From an uncultured Bacilli bacterium (GTDB taxonomy: Bacteria > Bacillota_I > Bacilli_A > RFN20 > CAG-826): a DNA stretch of 36,169 bases. Positions 13,885 to 36,169 of the stretch are shown piece after piece; position 1 is the stretch's first letter, and each line of letters starts with the position of its first letter. The notes beneath the pieces are model-generated. The model made no database searches. It was not told where the DNA came from and saw only the letters and a program-made list of their open reading frames with translations. Made by a program: the position numbers and the translations under genes. The stretch lies in the NCBI GenBank assembly GCA_944351395.1, contig CALVPP010000008.1, positions 1-36,169 on the forward strand, read 5' to 3'.

Positions 13885-14219
13885 TGATGTGCCTCCGAGC
13901 ATCTAACAACTAGGTTTTTTAATTCTTTTTCATTCTCTTCGTATGTTTTAGCGAGATAATCTGTCTTCACGACGATGATGATGTCTTTCGTCAAGATATC
14001 TTCTTTAAGAATTTTTTGACACATAGATCTAACTTGACGTCTTATATAATTCCTAACGTGCGCCTTCCCTAGTTTTTTTGAAGTAGCTATACCAATACGC
14101 GCAAATTCTTTCGCTTTTGCTTGATAGTAGATGATATAACTACTATTTTGAACCTTGTTCTTTTGAGAAACGATATTTTTAAATTCTTTCGTATCTTTGA
14201 TACGATACATAGAATTCAT
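13881..14219 (-). CDS. rnpA: ribonuclease P protein component
   Basis: RnpA binds the RNase P RNA and assists 5' maturation of tRNAs. The 112 residues contain the aromatic-basic N-terminal RIKDTKEFKNIV and the signature GIATSKKLGKAHVRNYIRRQVR, in which the usual RNR-I-KR core reads RNY-I-RR. It starts 5 nt downstream of the rpmH stop and overlaps yidC by four bases. The rpmH-rnpA-yidC order is nearly universal beside bacterial origins. Confidence 0.94.
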   Translation of the reverse strand: MNSMYRIKDTKEFKNIVSQKNKVQNSSYIIYYQAKAKEFARIGIATSKKLGKAHVRNYIRRQVRSMCQKILKEDILTKDIIIVVKTDYLAKTYEENEKELKNLVVRCSEAHQ

Positions 14220-14224
14220 AAAGA

Positions 14225-14359
14225 TTAAGCACTTAAAACTTTGCGTCCTTTTTGACGACGACGAGCTAGTGTTGCTCGACCGTTTGCGGTAGCCATGCGT
14301 GCTCTAAAACCGCTTACATTTTTATGTTGTCTTTTACTTGGTTGATATGTTCTTTTCAT
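14225..14359 (-). CDS. rpmH: 50S ribosomal protein L34
   Basis: Translating 14359 to 14225 on the minus strand gives a 44-residue highly basic protein beginning [19 protein letters not shown] and ending [12 protein letters not shown], unmistakably L34. A GAGAGGA element precedes the ATG and a strong promoter lies 40 bases upstream. It is the first gene of the leftward operon from the origin. Confidence 0.97.
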
Positions 14360-14396
14360 ATATTCTTTTTCATCCTCTCTTATATATGCGGTATAA

Positions 14397-14426
14397 ATTA
14401 TATAAGTTAATAAATATTAAAGTCAA
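14397..14426 (-). promoter_or_regulatory. promoter of the rpmH-rnpA-yidC-jag operon
   Basis: On the minus strand, TTGACT (14421-14426) is followed after 18 bp by a perfect TATAAT (14397-14402). It gives a leader of about 30 nt to the L34 start at 14359. Confidence 0.75.
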
Positions 14427-14751
14427 ACAATTATCGCGTGGGTGCGCTTAACCTATTTAAATAAGGTGTTGCATAAAAAGTATGCAAATTATTTTTTCCA
14501 CACTAATGTTAATTGTTTAATTTAAATTGGTTGATAAACGGAAAATATTTAGTTTTATTCTAATTATTTTTATTCACATTTACACCGTGTAATGTGGAAA
14601 ATATTCCACAGAATCCACCACAATTTATCCACAAAAAGTTTTCCACATTTTTTTCCACATTATAAAGATGTGGATTGTGTGTTTTATTACGTCTGTTCTC
14701 ATTATTTTTTCACCTTTTTTGTGGAAAAATCAAAAACGCTTTTGTTTTTCA

Positions 14752-14779
14752 TTGATTTAATTGTGGAAATTGGTATATT
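14752..14779 (+). promoter_or_regulatory. dnaA promoter with DnaA box in the spacer
   Basis: TTGATT (14752-14757) is followed after 16 bp by an extended -10, TGGTATATT (hexamer 14774-14779). A DnaA-box-like sequence (14762-14770, reverse) sits between them and would allow DnaA to repress its own gene. The promoter lies 30 bp before the dnaA ATG. Confidence 0.6.
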
Positions 14780-14809
14780 TTTGTTAGACAAAAAGGAGAA
14801 AATTAATTT

Positions 14810-16165
14810 ATGGATAAATCTGTCTCTGAACTAGCTAACTTGTGGGATAGGGTACTTTTAAAAGTACATAAAAACTTAGATCAGACGATTTTTAATTCGT
14901 TCTTTGCATCAACCTATATTCACAAATTAGAAAATAATGTTTTATATGTTGTGGTGGCAACTTCTTTAGCCCAGACTCTCTTATCTTCTAAATATAATGA
15001 TTTATTAACTTCTATCGTTAGTGAGGAGACGCAAACAACCTATGGTATTGAGTTCATTTTGCAAAGCGATGTAAACGCTAAGGCACAAAAAATAGAAGAG
15101 GTTAAACAGCCCTTCTTCGCGAACGTGCGCGTGAATTCTAATTATACATTTGATAACTTCATCGTTGGGACTTCGAATAGAGAAGCTTCTCAGGCTGCAT
15201 TAATGGTCGCTTCTAATCTTGGTAAGATGTTTAATCCTTTATTCATCTATAGCGACTCTGGTTTAGGCAAAACACATCTATTACACGCCATAGGAAATTA
15301 CGTTAAAAAGAACATCCCGAATTCTAAGGTTTTATACATACCCGCTGATGTGTTTGTCGATGAATTTGTCCGTGCTGTGCGGGGAGAATCTGATGATTCT
15401 AACATAAAAGGCTATATAAATAGTGCTGATGTCTTGCTCATTGACGACGTTCAATTTTTGGCTAATAAAAATCAAACGCAAGATATGTTTTTTAGTTGCT
15501 ATAACACCCTTGTTAACAATGGCAAACAAGTCGTCATCACTAGCGATCGTTACCCTAGCGAACTTAAAGGGCTTCCAGATAGATTGGTGTCTCGATTCAT
15601 TTCCGGTTTGACCGTTAACATGACTAAACCAGATTTAGATACTTGCGTGTCTATTTTGAAATCTAAAATTATCGCAAGTGGTTTAGATCCCAATAATTTT
15701 GATAAAGACGCATTAGAATTCCTTGCTGGTCAATATTCTACGAACATTCGTGAATTAGAAGGCGCATTGAATTCATTGCTTTATCACGTCGTAAACGAGA
15801 AAAAATCACAACATATTTCGTTTGATGTAGCTTTTGAATCGGTAAGAGGTAGTAATAAACCCACTAACGCAAATGATTCTATGTCTGAAGCACGCATCGT
15901 AAATGTTGTTGCAGATTATTATAATCTTACCCCATCTCAATTAACCGGTAAGATTCGTATCTCACAAATTTCTTGGGCAAGACACGTGGCGATGTATCTA
16001 ATTAGACTAATCATGGATGTGCCTTTCGCTTCTATCGGTGCGCTTTTTAGCGGGGCACACCATACAACTGTCATGTCTGCTGTGGAAAAAATTGAGTATA
16101 AATACAAACACGATATCACCGTTAAACAAGCGATTGACGAAATCAAAAAAAGACTTGGTCAATAA
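14810..16165 (+). CDS. dnaA: chromosomal replication initiator protein DnaA
   Basis: DnaA binds 9-bp boxes, oligomerises with ATP and opens the origin. The 451 residues contain domain I (1-85), a very short linker domain II, the AAA+ domain III from about 112 with Walker A SDSGLGKT (148-155), Walker B VLLIDDVQFL and sensor ITSDRYPSEL, and domain IV with the box-recognition region GAHHTTVMSAVEKI near the C-terminus. Walker A lacks the usual leading Gly (typically GGVGLGKT); Ser148 is AGC at 15251-15253. AGGAG precedes the ATG at about 12 nt. DnaA boxes flank the gene on both sides. Confidence 0.97.
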   Translation: MDKSVSELANLWDRVLLKVHKNLDQTIFNSFFASTYIHKLENNVLYVVVATSLAQTLLSSKYNDLLTSIVSEETQTTYGIEFILQSDVNAKAQKIEEVKQPFFANVRVNSNYTFDNFIVGTSNREASQAALMVASNLGKMFNPLFIYSDSGLGKTHLLHAIGNYVKKNIPNSKVLYIPADVFVDEFVRAVRGESDDSNIKGYINSADVLLIDDVQFLANKNQTQDMFFSCYNTLVNNGKQVVITSDRYPSELKGLPDRLVSRFISGLTVNMTKPDLDTCVSILKSKIIASGLDPNNFDKDALEFLAGQYSTNIRELEGALNSLLYHVVNEKKSQHISFDVAFESVRGSNKPTNANDSMSEARIVNVVADYYNLTPSQLTGKIRISQISWARHVAMYLIRLIMDVPFASIGALFSGAHHTTVMSAVEKIEYKYKHDITVKQAIDEIKKRLGQ

Positions 16166-25860: not shown

Positions 25861-25865
25861 GATAC

Positions 25866-25950
25866 TCGCCATCGCGATAGAGGGGCTATGAACCAGGTCA
25901 GGATAGGAATATAGCAGCCTTAAGTAATCTCTCTATGCGCGGTGGTTTGA
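25866..25950 (+). ncRNA. ffs: signal recognition particle RNA (small bacterial type)
   Basis: The core GGTCAGGATAGGAATATAGCAGCC (25897-25920) is the conserved SRP domain IV with its GGAA tetraloop and the asymmetric and symmetric internal loops bound by Ffh. Flanking arms CCATCGCGATAGAG and CTCTATGCGCGGTGG pair to form the long closing helix. The length of about 85 nt indicates the Alu-less 4.5S type. The ends are estimated from the helix and promoter. It lies between serS and tadA; in Bacillus the RNA lies after tadA and before dnaX. Confidence 0.9.
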
Positions 25951-25968
25951 CTTTATATAAAAACGATT

Positions 25969-27595: not shown

Positions 27596-30268
27596 ATGTT
27601 AGAACTTAAACACATCGTGAAAGATTATTACATCAATAAAGAGCCATATAGAGCTCTACACGATATAAATATTACTTTTAGTAACAGCGGCTTTGTTACA
27701 ATTTTAGGTCCTTCTGGTTGTGGTAAAACAACCTTACTCAATATCATAGGCGGTTTAGATCATTATACAGAAGGTGATCTCATCATCAATGGCGTTTCTA
27801 CGAAAATCTATAAAGATGCAGACTGGGATGATTATCGCAATAAACGCATCGGTTTTGTCTTTCAACATTATAATCTTATTCCTCATTTAAGCGTTTTAGA
27901 AAATGTCGAATTAGCGCTTACTTTAACTGGAGTCGCTAAAGAAGAAAGAAAAAAACGCGCTTTAGAAGTATTAAAAATCGTCGGGTTAGAAAAAGAAGCC
28001 AAGAAGAAACCTAATACGTTATCAGGTGGTCAGATGCAAAGAGTCGCAATTGCAAGATCATTAGTTAATAACCCAGATATAATTTTAGCAGATGAACCAA
28101 CTGGTGCTTTAGATAGTATCACATCAGTTCAAGTGATGGATATTCTAAAAAATATATCTAAGAACAAACTTGTCATTATGGTCACTCATAACGTTGAAAT
28201 TGCTAATAAATATTCAACGAGAACCATTAGACTTAAAGATGGTAGCGTCATAAGTGATGAAGTAAAAAACGATGAAAGCGGAGAAGAAGAAACAAAAGAT
28301 AATAATATCTCTCAAAACAATAAAAAATCTTCTATGTCATTTTTTACCGCTAGTTGCATTAGCGCTAAAAACATATTCACCAAAAAAGGAAGAACGATTC
28401 TTACTGCCGTCGCAGGTTCCTTTGGAATTATCGGAGTAGCATTAGTGCTCGCTCTTTCTAGTGGCTTTAGTGCTTACGTTTCTAACGTCGAAACGACGAC
28501 CGCTAATTCTTTACCGATAAGCATCGCTCGTGCAACTGTTTCAGTCGATGAAAATGCAGATATTTATGAAAGATTCCCTAGTGATGACACTATAATTTCA
28601 TATTCTTCTAGTTCAACGACCGTTTATGATTACCATTACAACACTTTTACGCAAGAGTACATAGAATATGTAGAACAATTAAAAGAAGATGGCTTAGCTG
28701 GTTCAATTTTGTTTAATCAAACCGGGCTTTCGATGAATTTATTAAGCAAAACACCTAATGGTAATATCGTCAAAGTGGATGAAAATGGTTCGACAGGTTC
28801 GTTTAGTAGTGAAGTTGTATCATCTATCACCGCTTTACCCACTACCGTATGGCATGAATTATATGGTGATGAAGAATATACTTTATCGCTATATGATGTA
28901 CTTGCAGGGGAGTTTCCTCAAACGGATGACGAGGTCGTTTTGATCGTCGATTCATATAATAGAGTATATCGTGATGCGTTAATTAATTTAGGTCTTATCG
29001 ATGCGACGGATTATCGCGAATACATATCGTTTGATGAATTGGTGGGGCACGAATTTAAAGTATTTCCAAATAGTGATATCTACACAAATAAGTATATTGG
29101 TCAAGGGACCTACACTGATTTACATGGTGAAGTACAAACTATAGAAATTGATCGTTATGAAGCGCCTAATTTTGAAGATGATTCTAATGCAAGAAATACA
29201 TACTGGAACGATAGTTCGAAAGGTAGAAAACTTACTTTAAGCGGCATAATCCGCGTAAAAGAAAATTCTTATATCGATATTATGCAACCAAGTATTGGTT
29301 ATCTAAGTGGCTTAAAAGAAGACATATTTAACGCAAATAGAGTATCAGATATTTCCACATCATTATATGATAAAAACTGGGCCGTTGATTCTGTTTTACA
29401 ATCACCTTCTGCCCAAGCAGAACTTTTAAAAATGATTACTGACCCTACTTATGTACCTCAAGATCCTTCGCTTGAAGTGTTTAGAGATTATACGAACATT
29501 TACGACATTATTAATCGTGCATTTTATTTCTTTGATCCAGGTGATATTAAGACACCAAGCACAACACCTCTTACTAGTGTTGGTGTGAGTGAATATCTTA
29601 CTTTAGGTAGAAAATATTCAAGCGACTTATCTAATGAATATGGAACGCATGCAGATACTTATCTTAGCCTCTTAGCAAATTATCTCGCTTATTCATTAGT
29701 GACATCTATTGTCATTTTTCCAAATAGTCTCGACGATAAAGAACAAATACTAACTTATCTAGATGCATGGAACGAAGGGAAGCCAGAGGATGAACAAATT
29801 CTTTATACTGATACGATAGGCGAAATTACTAACGCTCTCGGTATCATGATTAATCTAATTTCTATCGTCTTGATTGCTTTTGCCAGCAGTGCATTACTCG
29901 TCTCTTGTGTCATGACTGCAATTATTACCTATACTTCCGTTTTAGAAAGAACCAAAGAAATAGGTATCTTAAGAGCTATTGGAGCGAGAAAGAAAGATGT
30001 TTCTCGCCTTTTCCAATCGGAAAATTTTATCATCGGTGCAGTTAGTGGTGTCTTTGGTGTCGTTGTGGCGGCACTACTTTGTTTTCCAATAAACGCAATT
30101 GTGAATTCTTTATACACAGAGACATATATTGGTAATATCGCTTTCCTGCCTTGGCAATATGGACTTATTCTCGTCGCGGTTTCTATCATTTTAAATATCA
30201 TCTCAGGTCTTATTCCATCTTTCATCGCTGCGAAAAAAGACCCTGTTGAGGCGTTACGTAGCGATTAA
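27596..30268 (+). CDS. ABC transporter with fused ATPase and FtsX-type permease (MacB-like)
   Basis: The 890 residues join a LolD/MacB-type ATPase (1-225: Walker A GPSGCGKT 38-45, Q-loop FQHYNLIPH, signature LSGGQ 142-146, Walker B ILADEP, switch His198) to an FtsX permease. The first TM helix is at about 268-290. A large extracytoplasmic domain follows up to about 735, then three TM helices, with the FtsX-type RTKEIGILRAIGARKKDV loop between the second and third. The C-terminus AAKKDPVEALRSD is the usual end of such permeases. Type VII (mechanotransmission) ABC systems act on lipoproteins, peptides or cell-wall enzymes. Neither substrate nor a partner is identifiable here; the lipoprotein upstream is a candidate. 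Confidence 0.88.
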   Translation: MLELKHIVKDYYINKEPYRALHDINITFSNSGFVTILGPSGCGKTTLLNIIGGLDHYTEGDLIINGVSTKIYKDADWDDYRNKRIGFVFQHYNLIPHLSVLENVELALTLTGVAKEERKKRALEVLKIVGLEKEAKKKPNTLSGGQMQRVAIARSLVNNPDIILADEPTGALDSITSVQVMDILKNISKNKLVIMVTHNVEIANKYSTRTIRLKDGSVISDEVKNDESGEEETKDNNISQNNKKSSMSFFTASCISAKNIFTKKGRTILTAVAGSFGIIGVALVLALSSGFSAYVSNVETTTANSLPISIARATVSVDENADIYERFPSDDTIISYSSSSTTVYDYHYNTFTQEYIEYVEQLKEDGLAGSILFNQTGLSMNLLSKTPNGNIVKVDENGSTGSFSSEVVSSITALPTTVWHELYGDEEYTLSLYDVLAGEFPQTDDEVVLIVDSYNRVYRDALINLGLIDATDYREYISFDELVGHEFKVFPNSDIYTNKYIGQGTYTDLHGEVQTIEIDRYEAPNFEDDSNARNTYWNDSSKGRKLTLSGIIRVKENSYIDIMQPSIGYLSGLKEDIFNANRVSDISTSLYDKNWAVDSVLQSPSAQAELLKMITDPTYVPQDPSLEVFRDYTNIYDIINRAFYFFDPGDIKTPSTTPLTSVGVSEYLTLGRKYSSDLSNEYGTHADTYLSLLANYLAYSLVTSIVIFPNSLDDKEQILTYLDAWNEGKPEDEQILYTDTIGEITNALGIMINLISIVLIAFASSALLVSCVMTAIITYTSVLERTKEIGILRAIGARKKDVSRLFQSENFIIGAVSGVFGVVVAALLCFPINAIVNSLYTETYIGNIAFLPWQYGLILVAVSIILNIISGLIPSFIAAKKDPVEALRSD

Positions 30269-30275
30269 AATTTTG

Positions 30276-30281
30276 TATAAT
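30276..30281 (+). promoter_or_regulatory. -10 element immediately before the P-type ATPase start
   Basis: A perfect TATAAT ends 12 bases before ATG 30294, so transcription from it would begin only a few bases ahead of the start codon. Confidence 0.5.
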
Positions 30282-30293
30282 GATATTAAATAT

Positions 30294-32789
30294 ATGAATT
30301 TTCTTACAAAAAAACAAAAAATATCTACCATTCAGCAAATTGAATCTGTTGAAAGATTTAATAAATCGTTAGATACAGGTTTAAACGATGAAGAAATTAA
30401 TATTCGAAAAGAACAAAGATTAACTAATAAGACGAAGAAGGCTAGCACCAAATCTTATCCGCGTATTCTTTTAGACAACGTTTTTACCTTTTTTAATATT
30501 TTATTGTTCGTCATCGCGGCACTGCTCATATATACCGCTAATTACTCCTCGTTATTTTTCCTCGTCATCTTGTTTTGTAATATGGCGATAGGTCTTTTTC
30601 AAGATATTAAAGCAAGACGTTTGGTCGATAAATTAAAAATAGTTATTAGTCCCAATATCGAAGTGATAAGAAATGGAATTAAAACGACGATTAATGTTGA
30701 TGATATCGTCTTAGACGATATAATTATTCTTTCAAGCGGACTACAAATACCATGCGATTGCAAAATTATAGAAGGAAGAGTTACTGTCGATGAGTCATTA
30801 CTCACAGGCGAATCAAAAGCCCTTGAGAAGAAAGCAGAAGATCTCTTATTTGCTGGTTCATACATAAGAAGTGGAGATTGTTATGCCAGAGTAGAAAGAG
30901 TAAAAGACGCAAATTATGCGACAGATTTAGAAAGAAAATCACATGAATTTAGAAGACCAAAGTCTGAAATTTTAAAGTCCTTACAAATATTATTTAGAAT
31001 TATTGCAATTATAGTGCTCTCGCTAGGCTTATTGATGATTGTCACTAACTACTTTAGAGGCGAATATAAAGACTTTACAGCTTTTAAAGAAAGCGTAGGT
31101 ACGACTGCCGGATCGCTCGTTGCGATGATACCTTCTGGCATGTATTTGTTAACTTCTTTAACTTTAGCAGTAGGTGTTATTAGACTAGCGAAGAAAAGAA
31201 CCCTAGTACAAGAATTATACGGTATCGAAATGCTCGCTAGAATTGATACCTTGTGTATCGATAAAACAGGTACATTAACCGACGGGAAAATGGAAGTTAA
31301 AGACATAATAACGTCAAAAGAATACAAAGACGGATTAGAAATCTTAGCGTCTTACGTGCATTTAGACGAACACCCTAACTTCACAGGTATTGCCTTACAA
31401 GAACATTTTAAAAAATACGAAAAAATTAACAGCTATAAATACACCCCTTTTAGTAGTGAATTTAAGACGAGCTTTGCAATTATCGATAAAAAAACATACG
31501 TTTTAGGTGCACCAGAATTCATCCAAACAAAAGATAGTGAAACTATTAAGAGATATGTAGATGAAGAAACTAGCAAGGGTTATCGTGTATTACTTTTTGC
31601 TAAGAGTGATAAAATGATTGATAAACACGAGAATATAAAGGACGAGATATTCACCCCTTTAGCGATTATTGTTTTAGTAGATCATATAAAAGACGACGCA
31701 AAAGCAACTTTAGAATGGTATGCCTCTAACGGTGTCAATGTTCGTGTTATAAGTGGCGATAACGTTAATACCGCTCGTGAAGTAGCAAAGAGAGTAGGAT
31801 TAAAAAACGCTGAAAAAGCCATCTCTTTAGAAAATATGAGTATTGATGACGTGAAGAAAATTGCTAACGATTATGTTGTATTTGCTCGTGTTAGCCCTGA
31901 GCAAAAAGAAGCTATTATAAAAGCGTTAAGAGAAGAAAAACATGTCGTCGCTATGGTCGGTGATGGCGTTAACGATATTTTAGCATTAAAGTCTAGCGAT
32001 TGTTCCATCGCTATGGCTAATGGTGCTGATGCGGCTAAAAAAGCCTCGCATTTCGTTATGCTCGATTCTAATTTTGCCTCATTATCTTCTGTCGTGGAAC
32101 AAGGGCGACAAGTTATCAATAATTTGCAATCTACCAACTCCCTATTTTTAGTAAAAACTTTCTTTGCTATGTTTATAACTTTTATTTTTACAGTTGCTTC
32201 TTTAGCTACGATTTCTGTCGAGGGCGTTGATATAATGTTCCCTTTCAAAACTAACAATTTTTACGTGTGGGAATTTTTAACAATTGGTATAGCTAGTTTC
32301 TTCTTAGCCCTACAAACCAACACACATCCTATTTCTGGTGCGTTTACTAAGAATACATTAAGAAACGCTTTCCCTGGAGCAATCGCTATCGCTTCTGGCG
32401 TAACTATTATTTATTTGTTTAATCTATTAGACGCTTTTAATGTCGTAAGTAGCGGTTTATCTGCCAACGAATCTATTGCGCTTACGATATCGACGATGTA
32501 TATGACTTTTATAAGCGCTGTCTATTTGTTTAGAAGATGTATCCCATTTAATCTTTATAGAATTGTACTTTTTGTTTCTATTTGTATCGTTGCAACTCTA
32601 GCAGTATTTACGATTAGTTGGATGAATTGGGATCTGCTTAATACCTCATTTATTGATTTCGATTGGCGTTCATATCTCATCTTATTATTCATCTCTTTAT
32701 CCGGTGCAGTATTTTATGTCATATTAGATTTGTTATTCCATAACATAAAAATTAGAAGAAGTAAGAGGACAAAACAATATGAAAATTAA
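30294..32789 (+). CDS. P-type cation-transporting ATPase
   Basis: ATG 30294 is chosen because the frame upstream overlaps the preceding gene; this gives 831 residues. P-type landmarks are all present: TGES (171-174, actuator), phosphorylated Asp323 in DKTGTLT, the nucleotide-domain region around GAPEFIQ, and the hinge GDGVNDILALK. About ten TM helices are placed as in P2-type pumps (two, two, then six). The M4 ion-site motif is PSGMYLL (280-286) where Ca-ATPases have PEGL, so the key Glu is absent. This resembles the CtpE/Exp7-type group, but the ion is not determinable. No SD. It overlaps psuG by 11 bases. Confidence 0.85.
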   Translation: MNFLTKKQKISTIQQIESVERFNKSLDTGLNDEEINIRKEQRLTNKTKKASTKSYPRILLDNVFTFFNILLFVIAALLIYTANYSSLFFLVILFCNMAIGLFQDIKARRLVDKLKIVISPNIEVIRNGIKTTINVDDIVLDDIIILSSGLQIPCDCKIIEGRVTVDESLLTGESKALEKKAEDLLFAGSYIRSGDCYARVERVKDANYATDLERKSHEFRRPKSEILKSLQILFRIIAIIVLSLGLLMIVTNYFRGEYKDFTAFKESVGTTAGSLVAMIPSGMYLLTSLTLAVGVIRLAKKRTLVQELYGIEMLARIDTLCIDKTGTLTDGKMEVKDIITSKEYKDGLEILASYVHLDEHPNFTGIALQEHFKKYEKINSYKYTPFSSEFKTSFAIIDKKTYVLGAPEFIQTKDSETIKRYVDEETSKGYRVLLFAKSDKMIDKHENIKDEIFTPLAIIVLVDHIKDDAKATLEWYASNGVNVRVISGDNVNTAREVAKRVGLKNAEKAISLENMSIDDVKKIANDYVVFARVSPEQKEAIIKALREEKHVVAMVGDGVNDILALKSSDCSIAMANGADAAKKASHFVMLDSNFASLSSVVEQGRQVINNLQSTNSLFLVKTFFAMFITFIFTVASLATISVEGVDIMFPFKTNNFYVWEFLTIGIASFFLALQTNTHPISGAFTKNTLRNAFPGAIAIASGVTIIYLFNLLDAFNVVSSGLSANESIALTISTMYMTFISAVYLFRRCIPFNLYRIVLFVSICIVATLAVFTISWMNWDLLNTSFIDFDWRSYLILLFISLSGAVFYVILDLLFHNIKIRRSKRTKQYEN

Positions 32790-33678
32790 TGATGATGTTT
32801 TAAAAGCCTTAAAAGAAAATCGACCTGTCGTCGCTTTAGAATCTACAATTATATCGCACGGCATGCCATATCCTCGCAACGTCGAAGTTGCACTAGCGGT
32901 GGAAGATATCATACGTCGAGAAGGTGCGGTCCCAGCGACGATTGGCATTATCGATGGTGAACCAATAATTGGCATGAATCCAGAAGAAATTGAACAGTTT
33001 GGTAAAAGAAAAGGAATTTTAAAAGTCTCGAGAAGGGATTTACCTTATGTGAAAGCAAATAAATTGTGGGGCGCAACTACTGTAGCGGCAACGATGATTT
33101 TAGCCAACCTCGCAGGTATAAAAGTTTTTGTTACAGGCGGAATTGGTGGAGTGCATCGCGGAGCGACAGAAACTTTCGATATTAGTGCTGATTTAGATGA
33201 ATTATCAAAAACCCCTATCACTGTTGTTTGTGCTGGTCCAAAAGCTATTTTAGATATCGATTTAACGATGGAATATTTAGAGACTAAGGGCGTTTTAGTA
33301 TTAGGTTATAAAACTGATACGTTACCTTGTTTTTATACAAGATCTTCTAACATTAAGTTAGAATATAATGTCAATTCCCCTTTAGAAATAGCTAAAGTAA
33401 TTAAAGCAAAAGATGAGCTCAAATTAGAAAACGGTATTTTGGTGACTAATCCTATTCCGGAACAATATTCTTTGAATCATTCAATGATGGAAGAGACGAT
33501 TAATAAAGCTATTGCAAAAATGAAATCTTTAGGCATTAAAGGTAAAGAAGAGACACCATTTTTATTAAAAGAAATCGTCGAATTAACGCACGGTGAATCT
33601 TTAGAAGCTAATATTGCCCTCGTAGAAAATAATGCCAAATTAGGAGCGAACGTTGCTATCGAATTAGCGAAATTATGA
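32779..33678 (+). CDS. psuG: pseudouridine-5'-phosphate glycosidase
   Basis: PsuG splits pseudouridine 5'-phosphate into uracil and ribose 5-phosphate (reversibly). The 299 residues contain the family signatures VVALESTIISHGMPYP (Glu21 is the probable catalytic acid), ATIGIIDGEPIIGM, KVSRRDLPY, GATTVAATM, FVTGGIGGVHRG, VVCAGPKAILD and VTNPIPEQY. AGAGGA precedes the ATG. It overlaps the P-type ATPase by 11 bases and the TetR-like gene by four. The kinase PsuK, which normally makes the substrate, is not beside it. Confidence 0.93.
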   Translation: MKINDDVLKALKENRPVVALESTIISHGMPYPRNVEVALAVEDIIRREGAVPATIGIIDGEPIIGMNPEEIEQFGKRKGILKVSRRDLPYVKANKLWGATTVAATMILANLAGIKVFVTGGIGGVHRGATETFDISADLDELSKTPITVVCAGPKAILDIDLTMEYLETKGVLVLGYKTDTLPCFYTRSSNIKLEYNVNSPLEIAKVIKAKDELKLENGILVTNPIPEQYSLNHSMMEETINKAIAKMKSLGIKGKEETPFLLKEIVELTHGESLEANIALVENNAKLGANVAIELAKL

Positions 33679-34208
33679 AAACAGAAGAACTATATAAGGA
33701 AGCTTTTAAACAAGCGTTACTAAAAGATAAACTGGATGAAATTTCACCTTTATCATTATCGAACATCATCCATAAGACTAAACAATCATTCTATTATCAT
33801 TTTCGTGATTTAAATGATTTATTGGCTTGTATTCTTATCGACGATTTAAAAAAAGAATTGGATGATAAAGTGAGCGTAAAAGCTTTCATCAACGTCATAG
33901 AAAATTATAGAAAAGCCAACGAACAATTATTTAAAGCAATTCTTGATAGTGCACTAGTAGTGGAATTAGAACAATTTATCATCTCTTCTAGCTCTTATTT
34001 TTTCACAAAAATATTGCAGTCGTCATACCCAAACTTAAAAATAGAAGAAAGATTAATTCTAGCTAAATATTTAAGTGGTGCCCTATCTAGCGTTTATCTT
34101 CTGTGCTTAAGAGACACTAGACTAACTAAAAAAATAGAAGCCATTCATCTTTTGTTCACCAAAGAAAAAATAGACGAAATATTATACACATTAAGTTATT
34201 TATTTTAA
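33675..34208 (+). CDS. TetR-family-like transcriptional regulator
   Basis: The 177 residues begin with a TetR-type helix-turn-helix, here LSLSNIIHKTKQSFYYHFRDLNDLL (about 25-50), retaining the diagnostic FYYHF at the recognition helix. The C-terminal part is all helical and would bind ligand and dimerise; the shape recalls DhaS/YxaF-like regulators. The start overlaps the psuG stop as ATGA with no SD of its own, so it is coupled to psuG and may regulate the ATPase-psuG-tetR operon. The turn before the recognition helix is shortened compared with most TetR proteins. Confidence 0.7.
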   Translation: MKTEELYKEAFKQALLKDKLDEISPLSLSNIIHKTKQSFYYHFRDLNDLLACILIDDLKKELDDKVSVKAFINVIENYRKANEQLFKAILDSALVVELEQFIISSSSYFFTKILQSSYPNLKIEERLILAKYLSGALSSVYLLCLRDTRLTKKIEAIHLLFTKEKIDEILYTLSYLF

Positions 34209-34290
34209 TTTTTACAGGCAAAACCCATGCGAAAATAGAATTTCAAAACAAAACACATTCTAATGGCTACCTTATTTTAAAAAGTTACTT

Positions 34291-34296
34291 TATAAT
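34291..34296 (+). promoter_or_regulatory. -10 element for the 34374 gene
   Basis: TATAAT in CTTTATAATGTAATAAC. Transcription starting near 34303 would produce a leader of about 70 nt with the hairpin at 34308-34360 at its very 5' end. Confidence 0.5.
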
Positions 34297-34307
34297 GTAA
34301 TAACGTT

Positions 34308-34360
34308 CTTAAGATACTTTGTCTGCTACACGTGTGATGAGCGCATCAGTTCATCTTAAG
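34308..34360 (+). promoter_or_regulatory. structured 5' leader overlapping the ribosome-binding site
   Basis: CTTAAGAT (34308-34315) pairs perfectly with ATCTTAAG (34353-34360), enclosing a second hairpin TGATG-AGCG-CATCA (34335-34348) and the palindrome ACACGTGT (34328-34335). The 3' strand of the closing stem contains the first half of the SD AAGGAG (34358-34363), so folding would hide it. I do not recognise a known riboswitch class. Confidence 0.5.
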
Positions 34361-34373
34361 GAGAAAAAGATTT

Positions 34374-35477
34374 ATGAAAAAAAATGAATTAGCGTCCTTG
34401 CTCGTCTACGCTCTCATGATCGTAGTTGCCATCGTCATCGGTCTATGTATTATAAGACCTGCTTTTGAATATTATCACGTTGAAATTGGCGTTGGTATTG
34501 GATTCGTTTTAGGGGCTATTTTAGGAGGCGTCATATTCAACGCTATCATCTTTGAATTAGGACATGTTATTGGTGCTAAACTTGGCAAATATAACATCAC
34601 ATCAGTTAATATTCTTTGGTGTAATTTTTATCGCAATAACGAGAACAAATGGAAATTCCGTTTCCAAAGTTATGATGGATTTGTAGGAGAGACAAAAATT
34701 GTTCCCAAGAGTGAAGATTCTAATCCCAAACCATACCTATTTTTAGGCACTATGTTATATCTCATAGAAGCTATCGTCGGTGTCTTGCTTTTCGTCTTCA
34801 TCTCACCCCAAACAGAGTGGAATTATTTTCCAATTATCATTCTAGCCGTAGGGGGCATGATTGCCATCTATCAAATAGTTCCGACACAACTCGACAATAT
34901 AAACGATGGATATCGTTTGACTTTGTTAGGCAATAAGGCAATTAATCGTGTTGCTTTTAACGAAATGCTACGTATTGAAGACGAAGAACGCAAAGGCAAC
35001 AAAAATATAGAAGTGAAAGTTTTTGATGAAATTACACCATATACCGCTGAAGTAAACTTCCTTACTGTCTATCAATATCTTAGTGCTAAAAAATATGATG
35101 ACGCTATTAAAATTATCGATAACATTTTAAATCATAAAGAAAATGTATCGATGAAGACCGCTAGACGTGTCGAAGCACAAAAATTATTTATGCTTCTACT
35201 CACAAAACCCATCGATGAAGTGAAAGTTTATTATGAAGAAAACACTACGATGGAGTCTAGGCGCTTCTTCGCCGAAGATAATTCCATGGAATCATTACGT
35301 GCTTATATGCTCATTGCTGGTTTATTAGATGATTCTTATGGCGAAGTTATCTATTGTATCAATCGCAAAGATAAAGCAATGAAGCGATGCTTAACTTCAA
35401 GAAAAGCGACAGAGGAAATACTCTTTAGCGAAGCAAAAGCTAAACTGAAAGAAGTACATCCAGATTGGACAATTTAA
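34374..35477 (+). CDS. membrane protein related to M50 site-2-protease-like proteins, active-site His missing
   Basis: The 367-residue protein has TM helices at about 9-27 and 38-58, a helix continuing into FELGHVIGAKLGKY (60-73), and two further TM helices at about 119-140 and 150-168. The 60-64 stretch aligns with the HExxH of M50 peptidases (HELGHxxxAK), but the first His is Phe60, while Glu61 and His64 remain, so zinc proteolysis is doubtful. The C-terminal half (about 195-367) is soluble and helical, TPR-like in pattern (YLSAKKYDDAIKIIDNIL). Preceded by AAGGAG within a structured leader. Family assignment is by motif only. Confidence 0.65.
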   Translation: MKKNELASLLVYALMIVVAIVIGLCIIRPAFEYYHVEIGVGIGFVLGAILGGVIFNAIIFELGHVIGAKLGKYNITSVNILWCNFYRNNENKWKFRFQSYDGFVGETKIVPKSEDSNPKPYLFLGTMLYLIEAIVGVLLFVFISPQTEWNYFPIIILAVGGMIAIYQIVPTQLDNINDGYRLTLLGNKAINRVAFNEMLRIEDEERKGNKNIEVKVFDEITPYTAEVNFLTVYQYLSAKKYDDAIKIIDNILNHKENVSMKTARRVEAQKLFMLLLTKPIDEVKVYYEENTTMESRRFFAEDNSMESLRAYMLIAGLLDDSYGEVIYCINRKDKAMKRCLTSRKATEEILFSEAKAKLKEVHPDWTI

Positions 35478-35584: not shown

Positions 35585-35965
35585 ATGGGAAGACCAAAAG
35601 GAACTAAAAATAATAGGCGTTCCCCTGAAGAGAAAGAATCAATTGTTCTTAAATTAATCAATGGTGAAGAATCGTCATATTCCATTTCAAGAAAATATGG
35701 TGTTTCTCGTAGTCTATTGTGGACATGGGTTGAAACTTATAGAAATGAAGGCATTAAGGGGTTTTCATCAAAAGTTGGAAAACATAAAAAGGGAAACCCA
35801 TATGCAGCATTACATACCAAAAAGAATCTTACCGAAATTGAAAGGTTAAGGCTCGAATTAGCCAAAAAGGAAGTTGAGTGTGAACGATTAAAAAAAGGTT
35901 ACTCAGTGAAAGGAGTTGGTCAAAGAAAAGAATACGTTATTATCAACAGAAAGAATTCGAAATAA
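35585..35965 (+). CDS. IS3-family transposase OrfA (HTH protein)
   Basis: ATG 35585 has an excellent SD (AAAGGAGG); this gives 126 residues. It begins MGRPKGTKNNRRSPEEKESIV, with a helix-turn-helix at about 30-50 (SYSISRKYGVSRSLLWTWV) and a C-terminal leucine-zipper-like coiled coil (LTEIERLRLELAKKEVECERLKK) that mediates OrfA/OrfAB multimerisation. It overlaps orfB, and an A7 run at 35890-35896 in frame A-AAA-AAA would give the OrfAB fusion by -1 frameshifting. Confidence 0.88.
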   Translation: MGRPKGTKNNRRSPEEKESIVLKLINGEESSYSISRKYGVSRSLLWTWVETYRNEGIKGFSSKVGKHKKGNPYAALHTKKNLTEIERLRLELAKKEVECERLKKGYSVKGVGQRKEYVIINRKNSK

Positions 35966-36169
35966 TCGAACTCTTGTCTAACAAATATCCAATTAAATTT
36001 CTATGTTCAATCATGGATGTAAATCGAAGTGGATATTATAAATGGAAAAATAGACAAATCAATAAGCCAGAATGGGTAAAAAGAAGGGAAGATAATCTAA
36101 AGATTATTCAAGAGGTTCATAACAAACATAAAACTCATGGATATAGATGGATCTCAGCGTATTTAAAGC
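35884..36169 (+). CDS. IS3-family transposase OrfB, partial (runs off the window)
   Basis: The -1 frame relative to orfA is open from 35884 (stop TGA at 35881-35883) to the window end. After the A7 run it reads KRLLSERSWSKKRIRYYQQKEF, then YPIKFLCSIMDVNRSGYYKW and IIQEVHNKHKTHGYRWISAYL, the usual N-terminal HTH_21 region ahead of the DDE integrase core. It has no ATG near its beginning, so expression is expected by frameshift, or from the ATT at 35887 as in some IS3 members. The DDE residues lie beyond the window. Confidence 0.85.

Follow-up and report, generated by a model that had tools for sequence, protein, structure and literature searches.

A candidate family-specific leader RNA with an ACACG pseudoknot upstream of a membrane-protein gene in uncultured Bacilli

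The window, a 36,169-nt stretch of DNA from an uncultured Bacilli bacterium (contig CALVPP010000008.1 of assembly GCA_944351395.1), carries a short structured leader directly ahead of a gene for a membrane protein, and the question it raises is whether this leader is a regulatory RNA and, if so, of what kind. A preliminary description of the sequence had proposed an 8-bp closing stem that overlaps the Shine-Dalgarno sequence (SD), enclosing a 53-nt domain with an inner hairpin and the palindrome ACACGTGT, and had suggested translational control by an RNA switch, a thermometer or a bound regulator. Our best explanation, to which we assign a probability of about 0.57 from comparison of related sequences, is that the window leader belongs, as a divergent copy, to a cis-acting RNA specific to this lineage, in which a pseudoknot whose ACACG loop is conserved lies within a closing stem (P0) and which may act as a ligand-driven OFF switch of translation. 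The parts of the leader are listed in Table 1.

Table 1. Parts of the window leader and the gene that follows it.
Feature	Position	Strand	Remark
-10-like hexamer TATAAT	34291..34296	+	35-37 nt before ACACG in 4/4 genus members
P0 5' arm (anti-SD), TTCTTAAGAT	34306..34315	+	10 bp with 34353-34362; kept in G001-G003
P1 5' strand, TGCT (congeners CTCT)	34324..34327	+	4 bp with AGCG 34340-34343
L1 loop, ACACG, conserved core	34328..34332	+	Position enrichment and apparent codon-level selection
P2 5' strand, register a, TGATG	34335..34339	+	Pairs with 34344-34348; GATG kept in congeners
P2 5' strand, register b, GATGAG	34336..34341	+	Pairs with 34350-34355
P1 3' strand, AGCG (congeners AGAG)	34340..34343	+	Pairs with TGCT 34324-34327
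P2 3' strand, register a, CATCA	34344..34348	+	Window only; first CATC absent from the three congeners
P2 3' strand, register b, TTCATC (congeners CTCATC)	34350..34355	+	Homologous position kept in 4/4 genus members
P0 3' arm, ATCTTAAGGA, includes AAGGA of the SD	34353..34362	+	Pairs with P0 5' arm
Shine-Dalgarno sequence AAGGAG	34358..34363	+	10 nt before the start codon; from sequence
Downstream gene, 367-aa membrane protein	34374..35477	+	ATG at 34374

The closing stem is where the preliminary description had placed it. Its 8-bp core pairs CTTAAGAT (34308-34315) with ATCTTAAG (34353-34360), measures 53 nt end to end and contains the beginning of the SD; A-U pairs make up six of the eight, and the stem extends to 10 bp, one of them G-U, when drawn between TTCTTAAGAT and ATCTTAAGGA. 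The inner hairpin GATGAG/TTCATC and the TATAAT upstream of the stem are also as described. By itself the 8-bp stem is unremarkable, because a perfect 8-bp inverted repeat with a loop of 15-50 nt arose in 56 of 3,000 dinucleotide shuffles of 34303-34373 and the whole window holds 43 matches of this type. In our comparison it is raised above chance by its conservation in the congeners, that is, the three other listed genomes of the window genus (G001, G002 and G003). In all three, arms reading CTTAAG cover the SD, and TACACG and GATGAG...(C/T)TCATC are both present, with differing bases between the helices. The distance from TATAAT to ACACG is also kept, at 35-36 nt in the congeners and 37 nt in the window. 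TATAAT is the probable promoter of the leader and, taken as the one guide, would place the transcription start near 34303. A consensus scan of 34150-34450 gave no promoter on the plus strand, so the -35 element must be poor; no terminator was found in the same interval.

We read the upstream flanks of the gene in 146 genomes, of which 133 belong to the 203 gene-bearing genomes of the window family and 13 to other families of the order, and took the 130 nt before the start codon as the expected place of ACACG. The motif was found there in 71 of the 146 flanks, from 17 genera, in 33 cases as non-coding sequence and in 38 as in-frame coding sequence. As a control, the 29 other arrangements of its five letters occurred on average in 3.6 non-coding and 1.3 coding flanks (largest, 10 and 7), so that chance may account for a few of the 71. 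The element is missing from many relatives, since 62 of the 133 family flanks lack ACACG at the expected place, and none of the 13 flanks from the other families has it there.

Around ACACG the strands follow the order P1 5', ACACG loop, P2 5', P1 3', P2 3', which is that of an H-type pseudoknot, with P0 enclosing the whole. Clear examples are TTAACAG, AACACG, TGTGATTGG, CTGTTAA and CAATCAC in G104, and GGAATGG, AACACG, TGCGTT, CTATTCC and AACGCA in G233. The preliminary description had missed this pseudoknot core, and with it the embedding of the element in coding sequence in many relatives that is described below. The palindrome that it had singled out does exist, at 34328-34335, but the unit that evolution has kept is the pseudoknot loop: across the family ACACG is the only conserved part of ACACGTGT, and the right half, which reads ACACGTAT, ACACGTTT, ACACGTAC or ACACGCGA among relatives, belongs to another helix.

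This pattern bears on the possibility that a DNA-binding protein, such as the TetR-like regulator encoded at 33675-34208, uses ACACGTGT as its operator and that the hairpins are incidental. The palindrome is perfect as DNA, and the TetR-like gene lies ahead of the leader in the window; in many relatives, too, an ORF that resembles it in length and ending is found there (one, at L185, profile-checked). An operator would, however, be conserved in both halves, and here the left half alone is conserved. The right half differs from genus to genus and, as P2, shows co-variation with a strand beyond it. Moreover, in the single g18 neighbourhood that was inspected (G097, locus L183) the order is PsuG-like ORF, dehydrogenase, gene, and no TetR-like ORF lies between. 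We consider an operator very improbable and rejected it.

Co-variation of the helices was assessed by a swap test, where each strand was scored against partner regions taken from other genomes, with anchors set by ACACG and position only. After removal of sequences more than 85% alike (33 to 24 non-coding, 38 to 31 coding), true partners in non-coding elements scored 276 for P1 against 176 ± 14 for swapped ones and 358.5 against 264 ± 14 for P2; in coding elements the values were 385.5 against 292 ± 15 and 465.5 against 385 ± 14 (0/1000 in all four cases). With one genome per genus, the median z over 20 draws was 4.4 for P1 and 4.2 for P2 in nine genera with non-coding elements, and 3.3 (lowest draw 0.9) and 2.7 in 12 genera with coding ones; the swap tests as a whole are somewhat inflated by the relatedness of the genomes. 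Two alignments, hand-picked from 55 elements and thus favouring well-formed examples, gave covariation scores of 0.349 against 0.191 ± 0.016 shuffled (0/500; at most 0.145 when slid) for A2, with 25 rows that include the window and were chosen to hold ACACG, and of 0.303 against 0.209 ± 0.016 shuffled (at most 0.133 when slid) for A4, with 16 rows. Double-change pairs in A2 (41/500) and further pair types in A4 (365/500) showed no clear excess over shuffles.

For P0 we used elements with ACACG and a pseudoknot score of at least 15 (24 non-coding and 31 coding, reduced to 15 and 22 without near-duplicates). The 15 non-coding elements scored 228 against 159 ± 12 (0/2000), and the signal was weaker in the coding ones (11/2000). 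The search for covarying stems in homologous leaders, which the preliminary description had named as its own check, came out in favour of P0, P1 and P2 at the family level. At that level the element has what is expected of a riboswitch, a folded aptamer with covarying helices and a conserved unpaired core; the window copy is weak in this respect.

In leaders of the window genus, and in many further non-coding ones, the 5' arm of P0 is complementary to the gene's SD. When anti-SD strands were swapped among 23 leaders (33 before removal of near-duplicates), true pairs scored 351 against 311 ± 12, a moderate excess (0/2000). The folded state with P0 closed would block ribosome binding and the open state would allow it. 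What we observe is complementarity and co-variation, and it is from these that we infer regulation and its direction. In part of the family (G143, G104 and the group of G227), P0 ends well upstream of the SD, so the expression platform must differ there.

The window copy itself is a weak, divergent example of the family-wide pseudoknot fold. Its P1 and P2 are both short. P1 has 4 bp, of which one is G-U, and differs from that of the congeners (TGCT/AGCG against CTCT/AGAG) by one U-A to G-C double change, compensatory by its sequence, and one C-G to U-G change. In the swap test it ranked at 0.52 for P1 and 0.26 for P2, neither of them remarkable alone. P2 can be drawn in two registers, a and b, and the conserved register b competes with P0, because its last three bases overlap the P0 3' arm. 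Nested folding of the window leader gave a minimum of -14.3 kcal/mol for a fold that contains register b and lacks P0, against -10.5 kcal/mol for P0 with register a, a value in which pseudoknot energy is not included. The mean pair probability of P0 was 0.25 in the leader alone and fell to 0.01-0.03 once coding sequence was added; in G002, P0 is found in the minimum-energy fold. Separately, nested folding with coding sequence pairs the SD with early codons (window 34355-34400), an alternative way of hiding the SD. The covariance model R2, built from P0 and P1 only, found no match in the four genus members (G000-G003) at E ≤ 0.01, nor, with filters off and E up to 10, a match at the element in the window genus.

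For the window alone, then, the leader might be a simple RNA thermometer or a passive SD hairpin made of P0 and the inner hairpin, the pseudoknot having decayed in this genus. An AU-rich P0 with the SD inside it would suit such a device, as would a P1 of 4 bp with a G-U pair, the failure of R2 to find the genus and the retention of P2 register b as a plain hairpin. A thermometer needs no conserved loop, however, and TACACG is unchanged in all four genus members, while P1 carries its one compensatory change. Because the loop sequence is conserved we regard a thermometer as the less likely form of control and, for the window, as quite unlikely. Of the points first suggested, a structured leader covering the SD has held up, regulation by it is a proposal, and the thermometer has lost ground.

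We then delimited the distribution of the element. The pattern ACACGTGYGRTTGG occurred in 43 of 220 family genomes, once in each, and its reversed control in none; at least 32 of the 43 matches lie just upstream of a listed orthologue of the downstream gene. R2 matched 66 of the 220, again once per genome, and at least 47 of these matches lie just upstream of a listed orthologue; one other (G041, E 9.6e-4) is on another contig and is probably due to chance. At E ≤ 0.001, R2 matched 62 of 279 genomes of the order and 10 of 346 of the class, all within the window family and none outside it among the order and class genomes searched. The suggestion that the leader is lineage-specific is thus borne out for these genomes, with stricter filters in the R2 genome searches and with family and class sets drawn from larger groups. 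R2 recovers the element in 4 of 17 mostly non-coding loci at E ≤ 0.01. The pattern TACACGTRTRGATGA, allowed two mismatches, was not clearly commoner than its reversed control.

The 38 coding cases among the 71 ACACG elements sit in the last codons of the upstream ORF, mostly an iron-type alcohol dehydrogenase. In genomes with the dehydrogenase immediately before the gene, ACACG forms part of ACA-CGN, the two codons of a Thr-Arg. We compared codon choice in 85 upstream ORFs longer than 650 nt, a few of them not dehydrogenases; the only two checked against profiles had PRK15138 as the nearest NCBIfam model, below its cut-off. Leaving out the 38 ORFs without Thr-Arg at this place, ACA-CGN was used in 38 of the remaining 47, and 5.8 ± 2.2 is predicted from their own codon usage; the 47 ORFs are related and do not count as 47 independent cases. 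Thr-Arg is written ACT-AGA in the ORFs of G050, G188, G197 and G045, and the protein therefore does not require ACACG. Together, the excess of ACA-CGN and the ACT-AGA alternatives suggest that selection acts on the nucleotides at these codons. We propose from these sequences that the same stretch serves both protein and RNA in many genera.

Traces of the enzyme are also found outside coding sequence. The non-coding leader of G254 (L152) still reads ETGNGTRVIG in the Thr-Arg frame, with none of 500 shuffles as good, and this is likely a remnant of the dehydrogenase C-terminus; it hints that the free-standing leaders derive from a lost enzyme. Could the non-coding motif, then, be nothing but such a remnant, functionless and decaying? 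In the dehydrogenase these letters code for GTRVIG, and beyond the clear case of G254 an enzyme-like reading before ACACG is weakly present in G234 (0.010) and marginal in eight related g25 leaders (0.04-0.07). The other 23 of the 33 non-coding leaders, however, have no clear reading of this kind, the helices covary over nine genera of non-coding leaders, and ACA-CGN in the upstream ORFs stands far above codon usage. With G254 alone of the 33 clearly enzyme-like, we rejected a pure remnant, which we find scarcely credible as the whole explanation.

We compared the element with known structured RNAs. No credible Rfam 15 match was obtained at the element, either in the window at gathering scores, at 20 loci with E up to 5, or in the window, L147 and L022 with E up to 10, in agreement with the earlier remark that no known riboswitch class could be matched. 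RAGATH-26 (RF03051) reached 12.9 bits against a gathering score of 86.3 (E 2.7) and spans only the inner hairpin and the P0 3' arm; AniS (on the opposite strand of L022), STnc430 and other low-score matches were far below gathering or located elsewhere, and all were set aside. The sole Rfam match in the window at gathering score is an SRP RNA (RF00169).

In its working the element appears to resemble small translational riboswitches such as preQ1-II most. The preQ1-II RNA has a UUACACG stretch ahead of its hairpin and SD. According to one account, preQ1-II is a pseudoknotted leader of Bacillota with HLout topology that controls translation with the SD inside a helix of the fold and has queT downstream, and preQ1 type III is grouped with full SD occlusion (PMC11625349). 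Our element is like preQ1-II (RF01054) in being a leader that builds the SD into its fold. Unlike preQ1-II, it is an H-type pseudoknot inside P0 and precedes a 367-aa protein without a queT-type match. As to occlusion of the SD by a pseudoknot helix, the SD of our element lies in P0, a stem that surrounds the pseudoknot and takes no part in its crossing. RF01054 was absent from the cmscan matches for the window, the 20 loci and the elements of the window, L147 and L022, and no queT-type (COG4708/DUF988) match was found for the window protein (Pfam E ≤ 0.1, NCBIfam E ≤ 0.01) or its 30 orthologues (Pfam E ≤ 0.01). With preQ1-I and other small H-type riboswitches that occlude the SD the element has in common a compact pseudoknot close to the SD; it differs from the preQ1-I type in the separate enclosing stem that holds the SD strand, in the conserved ACACG loop and in having no Rfam match. 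Ribosomal-protein leader pseudoknots are gene-specific and lineage-limited and stand before one gene, which they place under autogenous control. Unlike them, the element precedes a gene for a membrane protein, and again there is no Rfam match. Our literature searches found no description recognisable as the ACACG leader element, which may still have been published. The most fitting label for the element is that of a new structured leader restricted to one lineage, an orphan riboswitch candidate.

The downstream protein has membrane helices at its N-terminus and a helical, TPR-like C-terminus. It carries a degenerate M50-like motif, xExxHxxGA, in which the first histidine is absent: E61, H64 and G67 are invariant in 30 aligned members and residue 60 is never H (30/30). 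A Pfam M50 match at E ≤ 0.01 was obtained for one of the 30, and the protein resembles an M50 relative that has lost the first zinc histidine. Its structure model has a mean pLDDT of 88.1. It gave no PDB sequence match at E ≤ 1 and no Foldseek match at E ≤ 0.001; VIA-align Z values of up to 10.6 to TPR-like repeats may reflect just a common arrangement, and for this reason we do not take the likeness as function. Orthologues are present in 203 of 224 family genomes (E ≤ 1e-20) and in 76 of 95 mixed relatives (E ≤ 0.001); G052 has two gene copies with near-equal scores, on two contigs (L006 and G052:C78).

Upstream of the leader, positions 27596-34208 of the window hold, in order, an ABC-transporter-like ORF (named by eye), a P-type ATPase, a PsuG-like gene (PF04227) and the TetR-like gene, which matches the DhaS profile weakly (E 3.6e-7, short of its cut-off). 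A similar order was seen by eye in several relatives. In the neighbourhoods inspected, the genes before the orthologues, identified for the most part by eye with the window's profile matches as a guide, include an ORF like a P-type ATPase, one like PsuG, in most cases a TetR-like ORF and, in some, the iron-type alcohol dehydrogenase.

The conserved loop and the covarying helices would fit recognition by a protein as well as by a ligand, and the single match per genome before the same gene in most pattern and model matches is also what the binding site of a regulatory protein would give, whether through autogenous control or an RNA-binding factor. Against a protein site in place of a ligand aptamer, the downstream product is a membrane protein for which neither Pfam nor NCBIfam, nor Pfam for the 30 orthologues, gave an RNA-binding family match, and no candidate binder was identified. 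We judge a protein site unlikely.

We return to the ACACG pseudoknot as a switch. Since the loop is conserved, it may be a recognition site. In the mechanism that we envisage, the signal read by ACACG would stabilise the pseudoknot, P0 would be held closed and the SD would stay hidden; with the pseudoknot not stabilised, the 5' arm and P2 register b would refold and free the SD. A small molecule or ion would most likely bind the ACACG loop and turn translation OFF. Within this explanation a small ligand is our tentative choice of signal, and a protein or other factor would be a rather doubtful one. Going further, the element could represent an orphan riboswitch class of its own, an H-type pseudoknot of minimal size that has ACACG as its pocket loop and serves a single membrane-protein gene in a single family. 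It would be written in the 3' codons of an upstream alcohol dehydrogenase in many genera and stand free as a leader where no such enzyme precedes the gene; this is possible, with the odds against it. Were it true, a cis-regulatory RNA would overlap protein-coding sequence and might have been exapted from it.

The element adds a structured RNA without a credible Rfam 15 match, with comparative support from 17 genera in a lineage that seems to be uncultured, and one that is found as a plain leader in some genomes and within enzyme codons in others. If the coding overlap is functional, the next gene should respond to synonymous changes in the enzyme, and the coding-embedded case would help to find regulatory RNAs that scans confined to intergenic regions miss. 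A ligand, if found, would give a first clue to the role of the membrane protein.

Elsewhere in the window, the bacterial small SRP RNA lies at 25861-25958 on the plus strand (61.6 bits), and the GC skew turns from negative to positive near 15 kb (about 14000-16000). Right after the gene, positions 35585-36169 hold a transposase-type ORF, whose HTH_Tnp_1 match only just passes the cut-off, together with another ORF that is cut by the contig end.
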